Shown in pieces: positions 9,064 through 61,255 of a stretch of 64,000 nt of DNA. The stretch is from Pilasporangium apinafurcum (lineage: Eukaryota; Oomycota; Peronosporomycetes; Pythiales; Pythiaceae). Below the pieces are notes generated by a model that did no database searches, was not told where the DNA came from, and saw only the letters and a list, made by a program, of their open reading frames with translations. The position numbers and the translations under genes are program-made. Location: NCBI GenBank assembly GCA_001600495.1, contig BCKE01000036.1:247694-311693 (forward strand). The letters run 5' to 3'. Each line of letters opens with the position of its first letter. Position 1 is the stretch's first letter.

Positions 9064-11556
9064 CTATGCCTCATTAGCCACTTTGCCCGCAGAATTGAGG
9101 TAAATTGGGTCCTTGTACCCACAATCGCCCCGATCTCCTTCGTTACCATTTCCATCGCTACTTGTGAAGCCAAACGCGCATTCGCACTGGCCAGTCAAGT
9201 GGTTACAAGTACCACGATTCGAGCAGACTGCGTCTTCTTTAGTACCCTTTCTGGAATTACCCACGCCATCGACGTTGATGGTCATCGTTAATGCACCATC
9301 CAAGATCCACCGCAGCGATGGCAAATCGCCAAAATTGTTGAGAAACTCGATGAGAATTGCGTTCGTACCCGCCAAAGTACACGCAGGTCCAGTTGAGGCG
9401 CCAATGCTATAAGTCACCTTCACGTCTCCGATTGTCGTCAACGCTGACAATGCGCTTTGAAGGACTGGTGCCGTGATGGAAAACGGCAATTGTAAAGTAA
9501 CAGCATCGCGAAATTTCAGACTGAAGAACCCGGAAGTGCCTTTGCAAAAGAGCTCCTGCTTTTCGTTTTCCTGTAGGGCGCCGTCTCGGAGATAGACCGT
9601 CATAGGGTCATCGCCTGTGGGGCAGGATCGTTTTGAACAATCGTGGCCCTCCCACCCATCACTGCAAAGACATCCACGGACCATGTCGTAGTCCCATGTC
9701 TACGTACAACAATAAAGAATAAGTGAGTCCTCTAGTTTCTCTTTCTCGACAGTCGATTCGTTACATACCGAGTTCTTGTTGGGCACGGCACCATATGTCC
9801 AACCCATAGTTTCGCCGTTAAGTTTCGAGCGCTTGGCGAGATCTTCCATTGTGTAGCATGTCCCATGTCCACTGCAATCCGATGGGCAAATGACTACAAG
9901 GAATTATCACAGAATATAGGATACATATTAAACGGACAAGCGAATCCCTCCACATGTGTTGGTTATTTTGCTTACGTCGATTGCATGCCGCTCCGGTGAA
10001 TCCACTTAAACACGCGCAATCGCCTTTTGTGCGGTCACATGTGCCAGCATTTGAACACTCCACAAGCTGGTGAGCCGTGTCATCTGCTATAGGCAGATCG
10101 AACCAGGCTTTACCCTTGGGACATGCGCGTTCGCTGCAGTCTCCACCGGTAAAGCCATCGTTGCAGATGCAGTCATAGGTCGGTGGACCTCTACACGTGC
10201 CTTGGCCACTGCAGGCGATCTCGCCTGGACAGCTCGTGACTGTCGTGGCTACATACCCACAGTCCCCTCGCTGGCCGATTTTCCCGTTGCCGTTGCTGGA
10301 GAAATAGTTGCTGTAACAGTTGCAGACACCCGTGGTTCGATCACAATTCCCTCTTCGTGAGCACGGGAGGTTCTCTTTTGTACCTTGAGTGACGGTTGTA
10401 AAAGTCAGTGAGGGCGAGACCGATGGGGTTGAGTGTACCAATTGCGAGGCATCGCCGTACATATCGGGCAAACTATTCAGAAGCAAAAGTGTCTCAATCA
10501 CCAAGTACAAACTGGGAATTGCTGAGGGTAAATTACTTACTCGCCAAAGTTTTGCGTGAACTCAAGGGTGATATCGTTACCTATGGTGGTGCAAGCGACA
10601 ATGGTGATGCCGCCAAATGTGACAGTAATTGCGCGAATTGAAGGCAGCGCCAGGAGCTTCGACTGCACGATTGCGGCCGAGTCGGTCGTGAGGATTGGCT
10701 GGGTGGTGTATCCACGAAATGTGAGCGTGAAGGAGCCGCCTGTGGCTTTGCAGGTCACACGCTGCTTCTCATTGCGCTGGATGCCGTTTGGGTCTTGAGC
10801 CGTGCCGGTCAGCGGATCATCTCCACGTGGACATAAGCCTAGAGAAATAACCAAAGGCTAGTCAGTCTATCTTGACTATAATCTGAAGATATGGATTGAA
10901 GGGTTATTGCCGCACGTTCGGAGCAGGTTGGACCAGTGTATCCTGAATCGCAAATGCATCCGTGGATCTTGTTGCTGTCCCAGATGTTGGCATATGAGTA
11001 AACTTGGCCAACACCAGGATCTTTCACCAGTGCATACCGCCGCATGGATTCGCAGCGTCCGTGGCCATTGCAGGTGCAAGTCACTATGGGCAAAAACATT
11101 ACACAACAAAACGAGAATGAGAAAGAAATTACAATATTGGGTCATCGATAAAATGAGCGCGATCTTACTGCGTTCGCAGGCTGCGCCGGTGAAGCCGGTA
11201 TCACAGGCACAAACACCTGTTTCGGGATTACAAGTACCGCGATTGGAACACGGTGCGAGGTTGTGACCCATGTCGGAGCCTATAACCTGATCTGCCCATG
11301 CGATTCCCGTCGGACAAGTGGCTACAAGAAATGGGAAATACAACAGTGACGTCAAATCAACTGGACGCATCACGACCGGAAGAAAATGATAAAACAAACC
11401 TATGGAGCAATCGGCACCAGTCCACGTTGGTGGGCAGAGGCAGATTCCCGGTTTAATGCAGATACCGCGAGTGGAACAAAAATTTGGACATGTGTAGCCA
11501 TCTATGCCTGGCACTGCGATCATCAGGCCTGCCAACAGTAACCCCAATGCTTTCAT
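9064..11556 (-). CDS. Secreted multi-EGF-repeat protein with two copies of a ~110-residue beta-rich domain
   Basis: Seven exons, all in phase: 11556-11400, 11321-11169, 11083-10916, 10838-10541, 10472-9976, 9893-9769 and 9699-9064 (677 aa). A signal peptide (MKALGLLLAGLMIAVPGIDG) is followed by tenascin/teneurin-like EGF modules (GICLCPPTWTGADCS, GVCACDTGFTGAACE, CNGHGRCESM, IHGCICDSGYTGPTCSER, GDCACLSGFTGAACN, CSGHGTC, GCLCSDGWEGHDCSKR). Two blocks begin CP(R/T)GDDP(L/M)T and end (Q)NFGDLP. They share NEKQ..C.A/GT.G.F.L.FR and spaced hydrophobic strands, so they look like one repeated domain, about residues 160-275 and 465-590. There is no transmembrane helix or GPI tail at the C-terminus, so I predict a soluble extracellular or wall protein. 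The ligand is unknown. Confidence 0.88.
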
Positions 11557-11933
11557 GATGCAACGAGAGTGAAGAATACTCTTTGTGACAGATAAGTGAA
11601 GAACGTGTTCGATCACAGAGTTGAAGCAGCAGTGCATGAAACACGAAGTAGTTCAAGCGAAACTCCTTTTTCCTGGCGGAACCGTTTCATTCAAATTAAA
11701 CCGTAGCTAGTGGTACTGAAATAAGTTCTGATATGCATTGACTCGTAAATTACCGAATGAGGGTAAGGGGTAATCCTGAAATTGTACAGAAGGACCGGTA
11801 GTTTACGATCCATAACACAGAGTTGACGGTAAAATACGGCAACACATCCACACGAAGAGGTCTTCTTCAAACAGCAACAGACCAACTCCTTCGTGCCACA
11901 CGTGACTCTCCCCCGGCATAGACACAAGCGACG

Positions 11934-13279: not shown

Positions 13280-14860
13280 TTACGAGAGTTGTCGCACTAA
13301 TTGTATCTCCTCTCGTCGACTCTCTGCCTGCTTCTTCTCGGATGGTGTCAAACGAGCGCTACTGCCATTATTATTCTTTACCTCCCCTGCATTCATAGTC
13401 GACTGGACTGGAGTTCCTCGTCCACCCGTTTGTGTAGGCAACGAAGAACGTCGTCTCAATGGAGCCCCTGAATTGCCAACATTACCAATGTTACCAATGC
13501 TGCTTACCGTGTACTTGACAGCACCATTGTCCTGTTCATGCTGCTTAGCCCACACCATCTCAGAGTATTCGTGGTCATGAATCAAATCAGCAAAGACAAT
13601 GCTTTTCCCCACAGATACAGCGCTCGAATCAACTTTGTTGCCATCCAGTGCGACGTACTGTGGATCGTTTGGATTCACGCGGCGGTTGCTGCGAATACTA
13701 TGAAGATGTGTATCAGCCTTGGCTCCTCGAATGTCTTCTGTGCAATTGGTAACGCGAAAATCGCGCCGCATCCCATTGGTGATGCCTGCAACAACAGTGG
13801 TGGCTGGGTCACTACAGCTAGCACCTGCGATATCGGAAGTCTGAAGTGCATAAGCTGGTTTGTTCTTCAGTGGATGTTGCGGTTGTGGATGGCAATACTG
13901 ATCATCCTGGTAAATCATGCCATTGACCGTGTAGACTGGATCAAGTACGTTCCTATCCAGAAAGAACAAAGACCAGATAAGAAATGGATGTAATAGGTTT
14001 CCAGTTTCATGAAATGAATAACGTACGTGATGCGGCTGGATTTAAAATCGACGTTGGTGATGTCCTGGACGTTAATGATATCGCGTGGCGGGTGTTCTCG
14101 TAGTCCTCGTTTATTCCGCGGCAGCCAGCCAGCCTGAGAGCCTGGTAAATCGTCCTACGCAACAAAACAGTGATCAGGACTGCGTTCTTTCTTACTACTG
14201 TGAATGACTAATTCTGGAGTTTAGAGAAAACCTCACCAGTTTCATCGGATCACGAGGGTGGGTGATGATTTTTTTTTTGAACGATGTGCCTTCAATATCG
14301 GTGACGTTGTAGCTGTCACGAAGAAAGACTGGGGTGACCTGTAAAACGATTCAAATGCATCAATCAAGCGTCCATGGAACAAAGAAAAAGTAAAGCAGGA
14401 AAGTGCGCTCACCAGGGGTGCACTGGTGAAGGTGGGCAGCTTGTATTCGGGCGAGAGGGGATTGCAGACGCGATTCGTTTTGAAGCCAGAAGGGCGAGGA
14501 TTGGAACCTGCATAAATATCGCATATGTCATTCAACAATTCATAATTTTTCAAGTTATGCATGATCAAGCTCAAAGTATTGTGCACTGAAACCTTCAATG
14601 GGCAATTGCTTGAATCGATCATCGTCCCCAACTCTGCGGTTGCTTGGGTGCAATTCCTTGCTAACTGAGCCCCGAATATCGTGTGGATCATAGAAATGCG
14701 GTTTGTTGATAAACAAGTGGTTCTTCAGCAACGGTTGGGCTCCGGAAATGTCTGACACATTGTTCGTTTGTCGAAAAGGTGGGTCTTGATGTGCGTGCCG
14801 AAGTTCCTGGTGCAAAAACTGTTGCAGCCGCTGCTGGTGGTGATTCGAATCCAGCGTCAT
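13280..14860 (-). CDS. Conserved-looking protein with repeated D-I-x-G motifs, unknown function
   Basis: Five exons: 14860-14593, 14507-14413, 14338-14237, 14154-14027 and 13952-13280 (421 aa). I do not recognise a named domain. A short motif recurs at intervals: NNVSDISGAQP, DPHDIRGSVS, YNVTDIEGTSFKKK, INVQDITNVDFKS, LQTSDIAGAS and CTEDIRGAKAD. Several are followed by 15-30 basic or Pro-rich residues such as THPRDPMKL or LHSIRSNRRVNPNDP. The regular spacing suggests a chain of short linear repeats that bind one partner many times. Architectures like this occur in flagellar and cytoskeletal proteins of protists, but that assignment is a guess. The C-terminal 70 residues are Ser/Gly/Arg-rich with an I-G-N-I-G-N-V-G-N run, ending in a basic helix (EKKQAESRREEIQLVRQL). 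Confidence 0.8.
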
Positions 14861-15078
14861 GATTTACCGCGGAAGAACACTAGGCAGTTTTCCCGTCACT
14901 TCTACGGTCAATGCAGCAAATTTACCCTCCTGGAGGTTCAACAGGATCACATAACGAGCAGTGATGCGCGTGCAAGTATTTATAGCGTTTGTTCTGCTAT
15001 TTGAAGCTCCAGGTGTGTAGCCATTTTCATTCTTGACTAGATCAGGTTTGCTGAATATTAAATTGCTAGATACAACTT

Positions 15079-15622
15079 CAAAAGATCATATGAGATATCA
15101 AAGTACCTCAGAGAAAACCTCCTGTTTTTTGTTTGGATCCGACTCAATTAAGACTAGACAATCGCGGAGTAGCCATTTCCGACATCTGGACTCGATGAAT
15201 AAGGGTTCATTCTCGAGAAAGATGTTCCTAGCAGCGTTGATATATCTGTCAAAGACAAACTTGCAGTGAGAACAGTCAAAGGCTTTTTAGTGCTTCATCG
15301 CGTGGTTGATTTTTCCACACTGAGAACAAGTCTTTATTGTTGTAGTGTTCCTCACAGTCATATGTGTGATCTTTGCCTTCCTTTCGCATCAATACTACCA
15401 CGCCACGCTTTTCAGACAATCACTTTGACTTTCCACGCACTCGATGTCCACAGGAATACATTGTCATCGCCTCACATCCGTTCTTAAAAAGAAAAATGGC
15501 GCTGAAAAGCGCTCATTGCGGAGAATTGGAAGCAAGTTTCTATTGATGGTGGATCTATTCGCTTCAAAAAAGACATCACAGTATATCCTACCAGTAGGAG
15601 AATCGGGGATCGAGGTTAAAAA
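15079..15622 (-). mobile_element. Relic of a TnpB/Fanzor-like (OrfB) element, longest of three copies
   Basis: This stretch is shared with 26841-27245 and 60851-61255, with the same outer ends: 'caaaagatcatatga' at the left and a block near 'gaggttaaaa' at the right. It also has about 132 bp (roughly 15232-15363) missing from both others. On the minus strand that extra piece encodes KTCSQCGKINH, a stop, then FDCSHCKFVFDR and INAARNIFL. This is the spacing of the OrfB/TnpB C-terminal zinc ribbon (two C-x-x-C pairs, then D-R-x-x-N-A-A-R-N-I). Stops and frameshifts occur throughout, so the gene is dead. RuvC motifs could not be identified. I infer an IS607/Fanzor-type origin; the ribbon itself is read directly. 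Confidence 0.65.
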
Positions 15623-15712
15623 AGCAGCGCATTTAATGTGTGGTTCCCCCAGGGGGTATTAAACATTCTTCTTCAATAATAACAGCGTAAGTTTACAGAG
15701 CAATTTTACCAC

Positions 15713-17263
15713 ATGAACATGGACACAAAGGCAACACCACAGCAACAGCAACGACATCATAAGAAGCGCAGCTACACGGTCGAGGAGAAGCTCGCGATCG
15801 TGCAGGCCGCTAAAACTGATTCGCTGCGTGCTGTGGCGAGGCGGTTCAATGTGGACCGTAATTGTATTCGCGCGTGGCGCGACAAGGAATCACAACTGGC
15901 GGAGATCCATCCAAAGGCGCGGCGGTTGCCTGGTGCGGGCCGCCGGCCGTCCACAACCACGACCACAGGCGACCACAAACGTAAAAGCGTGGAAGGCGAT
16001 TTGCTGGACATGGATGCATTGGATACACTAGCGGAGGGCAGCGGATCTACCGCTAACAGCAATGGTAAGGCGCGGAAGGCTACGAAGAAACCAAAGGTGC
16101 TGCAGGATTTCCTGTTGATTGGCTTCCAAGGCAAAGAAGGCGCCTTTTCCGACGTGGCTGCACGATCAGCGTTTGAGGAATTGCAGCAAACAAAAGCACT
16201 CACTCCCTCAGAATTTGAGACGGTTGGATATGCGCAAGTGAACCACGTGATGGAAGCCATCGAGCGTGGTGAGGTCGAGTATGGCGTCCTGCCGGTGGAA
16301 AACTCGATTTCTGGAACATTCCATGGCATTTTAGATCGTTTGATTGCATCACCGCTCAAGATTGTCGGTGAAATTGCATGTGTTCAGGAACTGTGTCTCT
16401 GTGCTCTGCCAGACACCAAGATTGAGGACGTCACGTGTGTGTTGTCGCACCCTGCGATTTTGGATCACTGTGAGGATTTCATTTGCGATATGGAGCGGAA
16501 AACGGGTGTGATTATTGATCGTCAAGCTACATGGGACAGCGCAGGTGCCTGTCAGATTGTGACCAATGAAGCCAACAAGAGCGTGGCTGCTATCGCCAGT
16601 GAAAAAGCTGCAGTCGTGCATGGTCTAGTGGTGTTGGAGAAAGGAGTGGGCGATGAACTTAATAATGAAACGCGATACATGATCCTGGGACGAAATGATG
16701 CTTCAGCGTTGCCGCTGGGATCGAATTCGCTTACCACGCGTACACAGAAATCGAGTATTGTCATTGCGGTACCGAATGAAGCTCAAGCACTTTTTAAGAT
16801 CGTTGCGGCGTTCGCGCTGCGGAATTTGGTGATCGTCAAGATCGAAAGCCGACCAGCAGCGACTGCAGGAAGTCTTTTTACCTCGCAAACACACCATTGG
16901 TAATACCGCATATCAGCAATTATGTATTTACCTGGTCAAATTTGGTCTGATTCGGTAAATGTTTTTTCGTTCTTGCTTTTGAATGATAGGGACTATATCT
17001 TCTACGTCGACTACATTTCCAGGTAGAAATGATATCCTGTTTTTAAGGGGCATTTATCGTGATTATCGTTTAAGAGAATTTACCGTCAAATGTTTGTGTT
17101 TCATGCTTGTAGTCCGGACGAAAATGTGAATTTCCGACTTCGTAGTAACTTGGAAGAGTTTGCACTCTGGGTGAAAGACCTTGGCACGTACTCAAGTAGC
17201 GCCGTGAAGACCAACGTAGAACCACCGCGCTGGAAGAACCTCATGAATGTTGTGTCGTGCTAG
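15713..17263 (+). CDS. Prephenate dehydratase with ACT domain, fused to an N-terminal helix-turn-helix domain
   Basis: Exons 15713-16899, 16990-17022 and 17113-17263, 456 aa. Residues 18-62 form a homeodomain-like/Psq-Brinker-type helix-turn-helix (YTVEEKLAIVQAA, then RAVARRFNVDRNCIRAWRDK). A Thr-rich and basic linker (KARKATKKPK, a possible NLS) follows. Residues 135-326 are prephenate dehydratase: GFQGKEGAFSDVAA, GVLPVENSISGTFHGILD, and NETRYMIL, which carries the catalytic TRF/TRY motif. Residues 346-430 are an ACT domain (ALFKIVAAFALRNLVIVKIESRP, DYIFYVDYIS). The enzyme converts prephenate to phenylpyruvate in phenylalanine synthesis; ACT domains sense phenylalanine. The fusion lies within a single open exon, so it is not a splicing guess. 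A DNA-binding regulatory role is inference. Confidence 0.93.
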
Positions 17264-25841: not shown

Positions 25842-26840
25842 TTCTGATGGAGAAAGAGACACTTGAGGCCAATCGAGCGAATTGGATTGTGAGTGATAGG
25901 GCAACCATGATCGTAAGCCTTTGCAGTGACTGGTGATAGAGGGAGAGTTAGTGTCACTTGCTGTTTTTCTGTTTGAGTTGGACTACTGCCACTGGTTGAG
26001 GAGAAAGGGAGATGGAAAAGATCTTCACCACCTTGAAATGCCTTGATGGAAAAGCTCGCGTCTAGTCTACGTTCATGAATCGTCCCGCTTCTGCGCAAGT
26101 GTCATCTTTCACTTTTATTGGCGTCTGTTACCACTGTGCACTAGCATCTGCCAATCAATTCCTCAACTCACCACAATGGTGGGACTCACGGTGGTATCTA
26201 TGACCCAGACGCTGGTCAAGGTTTCCATAACGGTTAGGTGGGACATGTGCGCTTTCCTGTTCGAAATTCGTTGCCACTGAGGATCCAACAAAGAGAAAGA
26301 CGGGGGTCATCAGCTCAGCTTCGGAATTTCGAAACCGAGTTCTTTATCTTCGCTTACATTGTACTTCATGATGTCGCTCATAGTCTGATCCCCTTCAATC
26401 TCCTATTATGTTCTATGGCCCTTCGATTTGGTTTCTAAGAGACCAATGCTGGTAGGTTGATTGCTGTCTCCCATCTCATGGTGTCCGAAGTCATCATTAC
26501 CAATCCGTTCGAAATCAGTGACTATGCGACGTGTGCTTCACTGCGCATTCTAGAAATTAATCATGCACGTTTCATAGGCTTTTATGCACGCCAGAAAGAG
26601 GAGAAAGTAAGTGTCCCAAGCATTCAGGTCACCGACAGATTATCATAGAGGAGAATGGATAGAATGACTGGCTAGTAGATGTGAACATGGATCGACCACT
26701 ACATCGAATGCAGCATTGTGTTTTTTCATGAAAGGATATTGCGTAATTTATTGGAGGCTTTGGATCAAGCCTGGATTTGCACCGGAACTTGCCATTTCAA
26801 GTGACACTAAATTTTGTATTAATCAGATGTCGCCTCAACC
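25842..26840. other. Intergenic region upstream of the first secreted-family gene
   Basis: About 1 kb 5' of the minus-strand secreted gene. It contains its promoter, but I find no clear TATA box or repeated motif. Short open frames such as 26457-26648 have no recognisable product. Confidence 0.4.
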
Positions 26841-27245
26841 TCAAAAGATCATATGATATCAATGTTCGAGTAACTCAGGGAAGAGCCCCTGTTTTTTCTT
26901 TGGGTCCAACTCAATTAAGACTAGACAACCGCAGAGTAGATATCTCCGATACTTAGACTTGATAAATAAGTGTTCATTATTGAGAAAGATGCTTCTAGCA
27001 TGGTCTTTGCCCTCCTTTTACACTGATACTACCGCGCCATGCTTTCCATACACTCGATCTCCTTGAGGATGCACTGTCATCATCTTGCATTTGTTCTTGA
27101 AAAGAAGAATGGCGCTGGAAAGAGTTTATTACAGCGAATTCGAAACATGTTTCTGCTTCTATTGATAAGGATTGCTTTGCTTCAAAGAAAACACGTCAAG
27201 GTGTACCCTATAGGTAAGAGAAATGGAGGATAGAGGCTAAGAATT
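26841..27245 (-). mobile_element. Relic element, copy 2 (zinc ribbon deleted)
   Basis: About 405 bp with the same ends as the copies at 15079 and 60851. The block 'ctcaattaagactagacaa' and the block around 'agaatggcgctg' are conserved. The ~130 bp ribbon piece seen in the first copy is absent; the join reads ...cttctag/catggtctttgcc. The remaining minus-strand frame encodes an A-R-S-I-F-L piece, where copy 1 has A-R-N-I-F-L, directly after K-E-G-K-D-H. It cannot code for a functional protein, so this is a non-autonomous, MITE-like derivative. Confidence 0.6.
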
Positions 27246-27495
27246 GTAACATCTGACGTGAAAGAGTACGCCAAGTTGAAGTTTCAATAATGAGCTCTTT
27301 TCTAACAGTAAACTGATGGGCGATGTGTCTGTCGCGGCGGCTGCTTGAGAAATTCAATTTCATGGTTGCCATGATTTATACTTGATGATGAAAGGGCAAT
27401 ACGATCAACAGCAGCAAATCTAGTGCTATATTACTTTTCGCAATGCTTAACCAAAACTTCACTCACTACATCGTCACTTGTTGCTATTTTAACAT

Positions 27496-43297: not shown

Positions 43298-44421
43298 GAT
43301 GTGCGTAGCTTTTTGGCAATTCTTGTTTTCATTTCCACGCCTCTTCAAGATCTTGCTGCATAACTCCAACCAATCGACATGCGACCTGGTGTGTCCACAT
43401 CGTTCATTGGTGGAAAACGACCGGCTCTGCTGACTATGTTCGTGATTTGTGTTGCGGCGTTACGCCATCCACGAGTTCGTCATTTAAGCAATATAAGATT
43501 TCTATATATTATGATTTTCCTCGGGGTGTTGTAATTTGCACTAGCTTGCTAGTGTGGAGAACGACCCACGCGTTGATTGTTTGGAAGAAATTCAAAGTAA
43601 ACAAACAAAGATTGTCCCTGAGTTACCAAATGATAGCTCATATAATCTTTTTTCAATATTTACCATATTTAGCATATGTTAGATATTAGTGAGATGTACT
43701 ACTTCGTGTGGACACCAAGTACAGTCAGTCAAACTGCTTTGATTTGTAATGATGACCCAGTACACACACACATGCACTTGAACTAAACGTAGCCAGTACT
43801 GTAGTCGGCAACTACGAGCGGACGCAGCTGTGATGCGTACCCTCAAGATCCAGAACGGGTGGTGGATCCATCTCCACCCCAAAGTGGAAATAATGCAATA
43901 GGAAACCGGCCAATATCGGAACGGGACACTACGCGGTGGGGAGTGGAGCAAAAAAGATCGGGAGATGGCGAATTTCTCATTGCTGGATCTATTTATCTAT
44001 CGAATCACAAGAAGCGGCCAAAGATACACCCAAAACTGTAAAGCGCATTCGTGTAAGTTAGGAAGATAAGTGGAGCATGGAGTGGGTATAAGGGTTGGGT
44101 GTACGTACCATTAGTGTTCCATTTGTAGCTCTCCGTCTCTTTCTTTGTAAGTGCCAAAGGAGGAGGAGGAAGAGAGGAGAACAAGTTTGCTCAACAGGTA
44201 GAGTGGACGAAGGCGTGGACTCTGGGACGGAGAGCGAGTGTACGAACCGAGAACTGCGTGGACTATTACTCTCAGACTCTGATTCCACGCGTAAGTGCCC
44301 ATTCATATCTCATTTTTATTTTACACCTGTACTACGTTTTTCCGTTTGTGTGGGTGGGTGTGCGTGGATCCATTATTACAAAATTTGTTGTGTGTGGACT
44401 TCCACATAAAAAAAATTTGTC
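43298..44421. other. Intergenic region upstream of M96-like gene B
   Basis: About 1.1 kb between divergent genes. Around 44150-44200 is a GA-rich run (ggaggaggaggaagagaggag) that may be part of the promoter or 5' leader of gene B, like the purine-rich leader before genes A and E. No gene was recognised. Confidence 0.4.
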
Positions 44422-59345: not shown

Positions 59346-60850
59346 CTGCTAAATTGAGTGAAGATGATCAGCTCATCTCCCCCATCGCACCCCAACTTGA
59401 AAGAATGCAAAGTTGTCCTTTTTGCGCTGGATCCTTTGCCAATGAGGAACACAAAACATGAGTAGAGACTAGCCAATCTACCAGGATAAACATGAGATTG
59501 GCAATGCTCGCGATCTGCTTGTTTATGTCAATGCGTTTCACTATCAAGTGTTGATCCCAGGAATAGGCAAGTACGAAATGCCAAAAGGTTTGTGGACCAG
59601 AGGAAATGCTAAGATGGCGTGATTGGAGGCTGTCCCCTTTCGTGAAGGGTGTGTGATTGTGTAAGTAACTAAGCTGTCACGTTAACAGTTTAAAAAAAGC
59701 AAGAATTGATTTACCTCCACATTCTGATATTTTTATGGAGAGTTGGATTTCGATTGTCACTGATACGCACGTTTTAGTCATCACTTTTTATCCGTGCGAT
59801 TGTGCACAAGTCAATTTCAGATATGCATGCCAGTTGGTTTTCGCTTCAAAAATGCCTGAGTTTCTTCACTCTTGCAAAATCGAATTGGCAGACATAAATC
59901 CAATTCATCTTGCAAGCAATATGCTGTTGAGCTTTCAATTGGCTGCATGAAGTTAAATCATCGTAATTGTAAGCTGGGTTATTGATTGTGTATCCAGGTG
60001 CTAGTCCACTCTAGTCCATATCGCCTGTCTTTCGCCGATCCCACTCTACTCACACGTCAGTCCGTGATGTGCCGACAAGAGTTTACCGGTTGTGTTCACA
60101 TAGTGGAAAGAGTGCTTGTGAATTTTAGTTGATCCACCCTCTTTTCTCCAACAAAAAGCGCGAGTGTAATATCAGAAACCAAGATGATTATTTCTTTATA
60201 GAGGGGCTTTACTGTATTCATACAGTAAAGGACCAGATTCCGAATTCGCCAGCTCATATAGGTGCTATGGATGGCTGGTGCAGCAAAATTTCGGTAACGA
60301 TAGAAGAGAGAGGCGCTCATGTGAAAAAAGTGCGGCCGCACGCAGCACCAGATTGGGGAAATTTTTTTGCGTTTGCGTTATTGGTCGCATGTAACCAACG
60401 ACGGCTGATGGAAGTGCAGTGATTTCCCAACAGCCGTAAGTAAGAGTAGGATCGGACGGGCAAGGTTGCGTGTGAAATTCGTGTGAGAGCATCGACACGA
60501 GACTGTCGCCAGTGCTCATTGCCAGCACACGACGTCCGACAACCAGTCGGTTCGAGGCAAAACATGACGAGTATTTCCAAGGAAAACGGTAAGAAAAAAT
60601 CGAACACACAGTCGTCAGATGTGCCTAATGGACTCACTCATGAAATAATTTTGGTATTTTTGATGAATATCTACTGACCAATGAGGCATCATCGATTACC
60701 TGAGGAATGGAGGGCAAAGATGCTGCATGCACTGGTTACTCGTGCTGTCCATAGTTAAGGCGGATGCAAAAACTTGATGACCGTCTACCTTTAAACAAAA
60801 AAGTACCAAAGAAGTATGCTTAAAAAGTGCTTGATGTGTCCATTTAAACC
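59346..60850. other. Gene-poor region
   Basis: About 1.5 kb between M96-like gene E and relic copy 3. Several 180-320 bp open frames overlap on both strands (for example 60265-60637 minus), without recognisable domains or splice structure. Confidence 0.4.
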
Positions 60851-61255
60851 TCAAAAGATCATATGAGATACGAAAGTACAAGTAACTCATAGAGGATCTC
60901 CTGTTTTTTGTTCGAGTCCGACTCAATTAAGACTAGACAACCGCGGAGTAGGAATCTCCGACACCTAGATTTGATGATTAAGTGTTCGTTCTTGAGAAAA
61001 ATGTTTCTAGTGTGATCTTTGCCTTCCTTTTACACTGATACTACCGCACCACGCTTTTCATACACTCGATCTCCTCTAGCATGCGCTGTCATCACCTCGC
61101 ATCCATTCTTGAAAAGAAGAATGGCGCTGAGAAGAGTTTATTACAGAGAATTCGAAACATGTTTCTATTACTATCGATGTGGATATGTTTGCTTTGAAAA
61201 AATACGTCAAAATGTATCCTAGAAGTAGGAGAAATGGGGGATATCGGTTAAGAAA
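60851..61255 (-). mobile_element. Relic element, copy 3 (zinc ribbon deleted)
   Basis: About 405 bp with the same ends as copies 1 and 2. It keeps 'ctcaaaagatcatatgaga', 'ctcaattaagactagacaa' and 'agaatggcgctgagaagag'. The ribbon is missing exactly as in copy 2; minus-strand reading runs K-E-G-K-D-H-T-R-N-I-F-L-K-N-E. It is the best conserved of the deleted copies. No flanking terminal inverted repeat was recognised, in line with IS607/IS605-type elements, which lack them. Confidence 0.6.

Follow-up and report, generated by a model that had tools for sequence, protein, structure and literature searches.

The question raised by this locus is what three short, decayed and clearly related sequences of an oomycete genome represent, given that one of them carries a zinc ribbon of the kind found in TnpB and Fanzor proteins: parts of a working system, or fossils of a mobile element. 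The window, by which we mean the whole 64-kb stretch of DNA that was analysed, has a G+C content of 46% and contains matches to eukaryotic genes (kinesin, SNAP or SNAP-like, and WD40), and the evidence base is this window together with relatives found in other databases. Searches with the region of copy 1 (BLAST) and with the three copies together (nhmmer) gave three convincing copies, the strand of which was set by the sense of the ribbon:

15073-15619, minus strand: copy 1, 547 bp with the limits adopted here, the sole keeper of the ribbon (BLAST, nhmmer)
26837-27240, minus strand: copy 2, 404 bp, ribbon deleted (BLAST, nhmmer)
60848-61250, minus strand: copy 3, 403 bp, ribbon deleted (BLAST, nhmmer)

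In all three the similarity breaks off at matching positions, give or take a few bases, and the flanks are unrelated, in agreement with the original prediction that the relics share their outer ends. No further copy in the window did better than E 0.01 with nhmmer; a weak nhmmer match to part of the element at 43604-43651 (+; E 0.01) is possibly one more decayed fragment and was left out of the copy count.

Copy 1 holds the relic of a TnpB/Fanzor-class ribbon, located as follows:

15224-15331, minus strand: TnpB/Fanzor zinc ribbon relic (TCSQCG ... FDCSHC ... DRYINAARN), by PF07282 and a ribbon profile, with one internal stop

The motif T-C-S-Q-C-G is read at 15314-15331 (-) and is separated by a single TAA from F-D-C-S-H-C and the following D-R-Y-I-N-A-A-R-N, the latter at 15224-15250 (-). 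When the stop is read as X, the stretch reaches 39.4 bits against PF07282 (E 7e-10; cut-off 26.3), whereas the two stop-free pieces taken singly score 14.2 and 21.5 bits, so that an alignment above the Pfam threshold is obtained for the joined stretch and not for its parts. A profile made of 74 IMG/VR ribbons and searched against the six-frame translation of the window, cut into 858 overlapping chunks, gave 56 bits at the ribbon (E 9e-17), with the runner-up place at E 0.19; this profile, which comes from the best 80 of 100 IMG/VR relatives drawn from 600 candidate stretches, is partly non-independent because the alignment used to find its loci included copy 1. Its maximum on five first-order Markov windows was 11.4 bits, and for a strict ribbon pattern the window gave one match, 60 windows of that type none. 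Moreover, the ribbon stretch matches a transposase family in PHROGs (E 6.4e-10) and TnpB models in NCBIfam (E 8.8e-7 and weaker, far under the whole-protein cut-offs). The ribbon claimed by the original prediction is thereby confirmed.

Comparison with the PDB, using the ribbon with X, matched 15 different sequences at E 1 or below, headed by the TnpB-like protein L79 (PDB 9b0l; E 2.9e-5), a mimivirus protein; the second ribbon piece alone gave only E 0.051. No Fanzor-named chain was present among these 15 matches (E <= 1), nor among the 60 listed of 70 in another PDB comparison. Identity over the ribbon is 35-44% with prokaryotic TnpBs and 44-47% with L79, two sources that this measure does not separate because the stretch is too short. 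The string KTCSxCGKI is common to copy 1 and L79. L79 also has a Glu separated from the first Cys by six residues, close to which place copy 1 has a Glu codon; in L79, unlike copy 1, Glu and ribbon stand in one frame.

That Glu bears on which branch of the class is involved. According to the relevant part of PMC10711439, the second catalytic Glu of Fanzors lies six residues ahead of the ribbon, as against about 50 residues ahead in most TnpBs. Close to the Fanzor position, copy 1 has:

15333-15353, minus strand: E-E-H-Y-N-N-K, in another frame just upstream of the ribbon, close to where Fanzors have the alternative catalytic Glu

The codon of the second Glu of this string starts 22 nt before the codon of the first ribbon Cys, where the rule asks for 21 nt. 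Since the Glu is one base off the ribbon frame, a frameshift probably splits the motif, which would be the natural reading of these letters. A Glu no more than one base away from the alternative position accompanied one of the two ribbon-like patterns in the window and none of 11 in 40 simulated windows. The alternative Glu is also found in 10 of 74 IMG/VR ribbons and one of five GTDB ribbons among those listed, and hence is not exclusive to Fanzors; even so, and though in another frame, its presence near the Fanzor-type place may lend some weight to a Fanzor origin. Searched alone against Pfam, the Glu piece gave no PF07282 match, its only hit being to an unrelated family (E 0.035). A DNA pattern for alternative-Glu ribbons was also tried on IMG/VR and discarded: it marked 18 stretches, from which came none of the 10 alternative-Glu ribbon proteins found by a script run over all the loci collected.

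The rest of the catalytic machinery is damaged or missing. The last catalytic Asp of RuvC (in RD after the ribbon) is replaced by Tyr in copy 1, which reads D-R-Y, a change consistent with decay; together with the stop inside the ribbon and the probable frameshift, it bears out the earlier description of a decayed element. From the Glu to the far end of copy 1 there remain about 266 nt, insufficient for the remainder of a Fanzor gene; nor are the copies long enough to include RuvC-I, where Fanzors have their DPG motif. A profile of 67 IMG/VR prokaryotic N-terminal parts found no upstream TnpB part in the window, its best place scoring 3.7 bits (E 1.6), although a prokaryotic profile could miss Fanzor1. 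Taken together, the short remaining length, the Tyr in place of Asp and the lack of an N-terminal match indicate that copy 1 is itself a remnant.

The alignment of the three copies shows two stretches of copy 1 that are absent from the other two, with coordinates converted from alignment columns:

15232-15364, minus strand: first stretch, a gap of 133 alignment columns in copies 2 and 3
15415-15435, minus strand: second stretch, a gap of 21 alignment columns in the same two copies

The 133-column gap common to copies 2 and 3 takes out the ribbon, and corresponds to the deletion of about 130 bp that had been proposed from the letters; the further proposal that a deleted derivative spread would follow from its presence in two copies. 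At 281 alignment sites all copies agree and at 19 all differ, with 57, 38 and 24 differences restricted to copies 1, 2 and 3, respectively; for the excess in copy 1, base composition revealed no direction of change.

A frame upstream of the ribbon, which we infer to be that of the Fanzor gene, has one stop column common to all three copies, and therefore their common ancestor was probably already non-coding. Two other stops in this frame are common to copies 2 and 3 only, copy 1 being sense there, and still others are private to copy 1. In this regard, the view of copy 1 as the ribbon-bearing relic needs amending: the ribbon is there, but its bearer is a remnant whose ancestor was, by the common stop, probably defective already. 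On the other side of the ribbon a frame has stayed open:

15101-15223, minus strand: reading frame after the ribbon, no stops in 123 gapless columns in all three copies

In copy 1 an open piece at 15101-15286 (-) covers this tail. Three stop-free tails arise in 23% of null simulations, and there is no sign of protein selection on the tail, with 40 non-synonymous codon differences between copies against 38.9 by chance and no synonymous excess. The upstream frame that is probably Fanzor's runs on in phase into that of the tail in both ribbon-less copies, 2 and 3, which chance alone would give in a third of cases. Among IMG/VR sequences, relatives of the tail were confirmed neither by protein nor by an invariant DNA string.

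The explanation that we favour, and consider likely, is that a transposon carrying a Fanzor gene gave rise to a small non-autonomous DNA element, of which these are three old copies. On this view they are fossils of a known kind of transposon and not a working system. The simplest history would start from an ancestor unable to make protein, followed by the ribbon deletion and by further copying. An element already missing most of the Fanzor gene would have been copied, and a descendant would then have lost the ribbon as well and been copied again, its mobility presumably supplied by the transposase of another element; the three copies would now be inert and drifting without selection. This order of events is itself conjectural because three copies can be rooted only by the deletion. 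Under the same explanation, a Fanzor gene would have eroded stepwise, probably losing most of its length before the ribbon, while the ends of the element kept spreading. Three copies per 64 kb hint, and do no more than hint, at a large family with an intact parent.

Non-autonomous elements of the MITE type are short deletion derivatives present in several copies, with terminal inverted repeats and target-site duplications. Copies 2 and 3 resemble them in being a short deletion derivative of an element in several copies, and differ in that target-site duplications were not detected here, nor any clear terminal inverted repeats. Regarding Fanzors proper, the part of the survey by Bao and Jurka (2013, PMC3627910) that deals with their distribution reports them across many eukaryotes, including Phytophthora, Pythium and Albugo, in several transposon types. 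Like the Fanzor1 and Fanzor2 elements described there, the family is a repeat in eukaryotic DNA that carries, in copy 1, the PF07282 C4 ribbon; unlike them, copy 1 keeps only the C-terminal end, with a stop and a probable frameshift. As for the Fanzor motif given in that part of PMC3627910, copy 1 agrees in the Thr four places before the first Cys and departs from it in having Ile at the next motif place and Tyr for the last Asp. A closer parallel comes from Spizellomyces punctatus, where the portion of Saito et al. (2023, PMC10432273) on these loci counts 134 ghost Spu-1 loci lacking the Fanzor gene. As described there, they are likewise short, share their ends, lack a usable Fanzor gene, and measure about 550 nt between repeats against 403-547 bp for the whole copies here. 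They have also retained inverted repeats of 30 nt and a conserved end for the guide RNA, neither of which is demonstrated in our three copies, and, unlike them, copy 1 retains a piece of the gene. By analogy, then, the family would match the ghost pattern in outline, as a new case of a known kind of element.

The same parallel suggests that the copies could still serve, the 3' end being a guide-RNA gene whose product would act in trans, serving an intact Fanzor encoded at some other locus, as the original prediction also envisaged for the flank of the ribbon. We regard this as improbable. The ghost scaffolds of four loci were functional with SpuFz1 in human cells, according to the section of PMC10432273 on that assay, and in our copies the 3' part is 83.4, 84.3 and 83.4% identical in the three pairs, which upholds the earlier observation of a very similar stretch beside the ribbon. 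Upstream, identity is 69% between copies 1 and 2, 76% between copies 1 and 3, and 83.0% between copies 2 and 3 (Fisher p for 3' versus upstream 0.001, 0.057 and 1.0), so the contrast of copy 1 is the single result leaning to a constrained 3' end, but copies 2 and 3 are equally alike in both parts. Nor is the longest invariant run, of 20 nt, unusual (permutation p 0.078), and most of the similar stretch belongs to the reading frame that follows the ribbon instead of forming a 3' flank of its own. Folding predicts a hairpin at the 3' end of copies 1 and 3; however, in none of the three copies do the 3' 150 nt fold more stably than shuffled sequences (z -1.38, +0.75 and -1.24; -0.23, -0.95 and +0.11 at the other end), none of the 40 pairs of the predicted consensus fold has compensatory changes among these three sequences, and Rfam has no match over 14500-16000. 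The folding check, consensus fold, Rfam and conservation thus lend no support to a guide (omega) RNA. The combined version, with a lineage of ghost Fanzors whose ribbon loss was coupled to the spread of the remnant and whose 3' ends continue to provide an intact Fanzor at another genomic locus with guide RNAs, is very unlikely.

A second alternative, to which we give a small chance, is that the source was a TnpB element of bacterial or phage type acquired by the host, and not a eukaryotic Fanzor. Nine GTDB loci (E 1e-8 to 3e-5) and at least 80 IMG/VR loci (E 2e-7 to 7e-5) match, in both cases with E-values computed over candidates only, and the alternative Glu has the prokaryotic and viral occurrences given above. 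The eukaryotic neighbour genes, the strong decay, L79 as the top PDB match and the Fanzors known from many eukaryotes (from the same part of PMC3627910) argue instead for the Fanzor-derived element.

Local duplication, as opposed to transposition, would account for three copies lying within about 46 kb in one orientation, and no target-site duplication was found (direct-repeat p 0.83, 0.52 and 0.09 for the three copies against random 40-mers of the window). Old copies may nevertheless have lost such duplications, and duplication is highly improbable given that all three have the same two ends and that the similarity does not reach into the flanks. The sole candidate terminal repeat, the 6-base AACCTC, is intact at both ends in none of the three copies; with neither this pair nor a target-site duplication, it is from the discrete ends that transposition is deduced. 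The lowest p of the six tests on target-site duplications and inverted flanks was 0.05, for the inverted flanks of copy 2 (26797-27280), where an 8-base inverted match, TCAGATGT, between the two 40-nt flanks is probably due to chance.

That the ribbon is a chance string is scarcely conceivable, because its stop, its probable frameshift and the low Pfam scores of its stop-free pieces, which would suit such an origin, are strongly outweighed by the profile score in the six-frame search of the window against the five simulated ones.

Two features of the surroundings deserve mention in their own right. An ORF at 15713-16903 (+), about 90 nt off the end of copy 1, encodes a prephenate dehydratase (PF00800, 148.8 bits) whose N-terminus matches a transposase-like helix-turn-helix (BrkDBD 25.6 and CENP-B_N 22.5 bits, both above the cut-off), and three adjacent ORFs at 9064-11637 (-) have EGF/teneurin-like matches.
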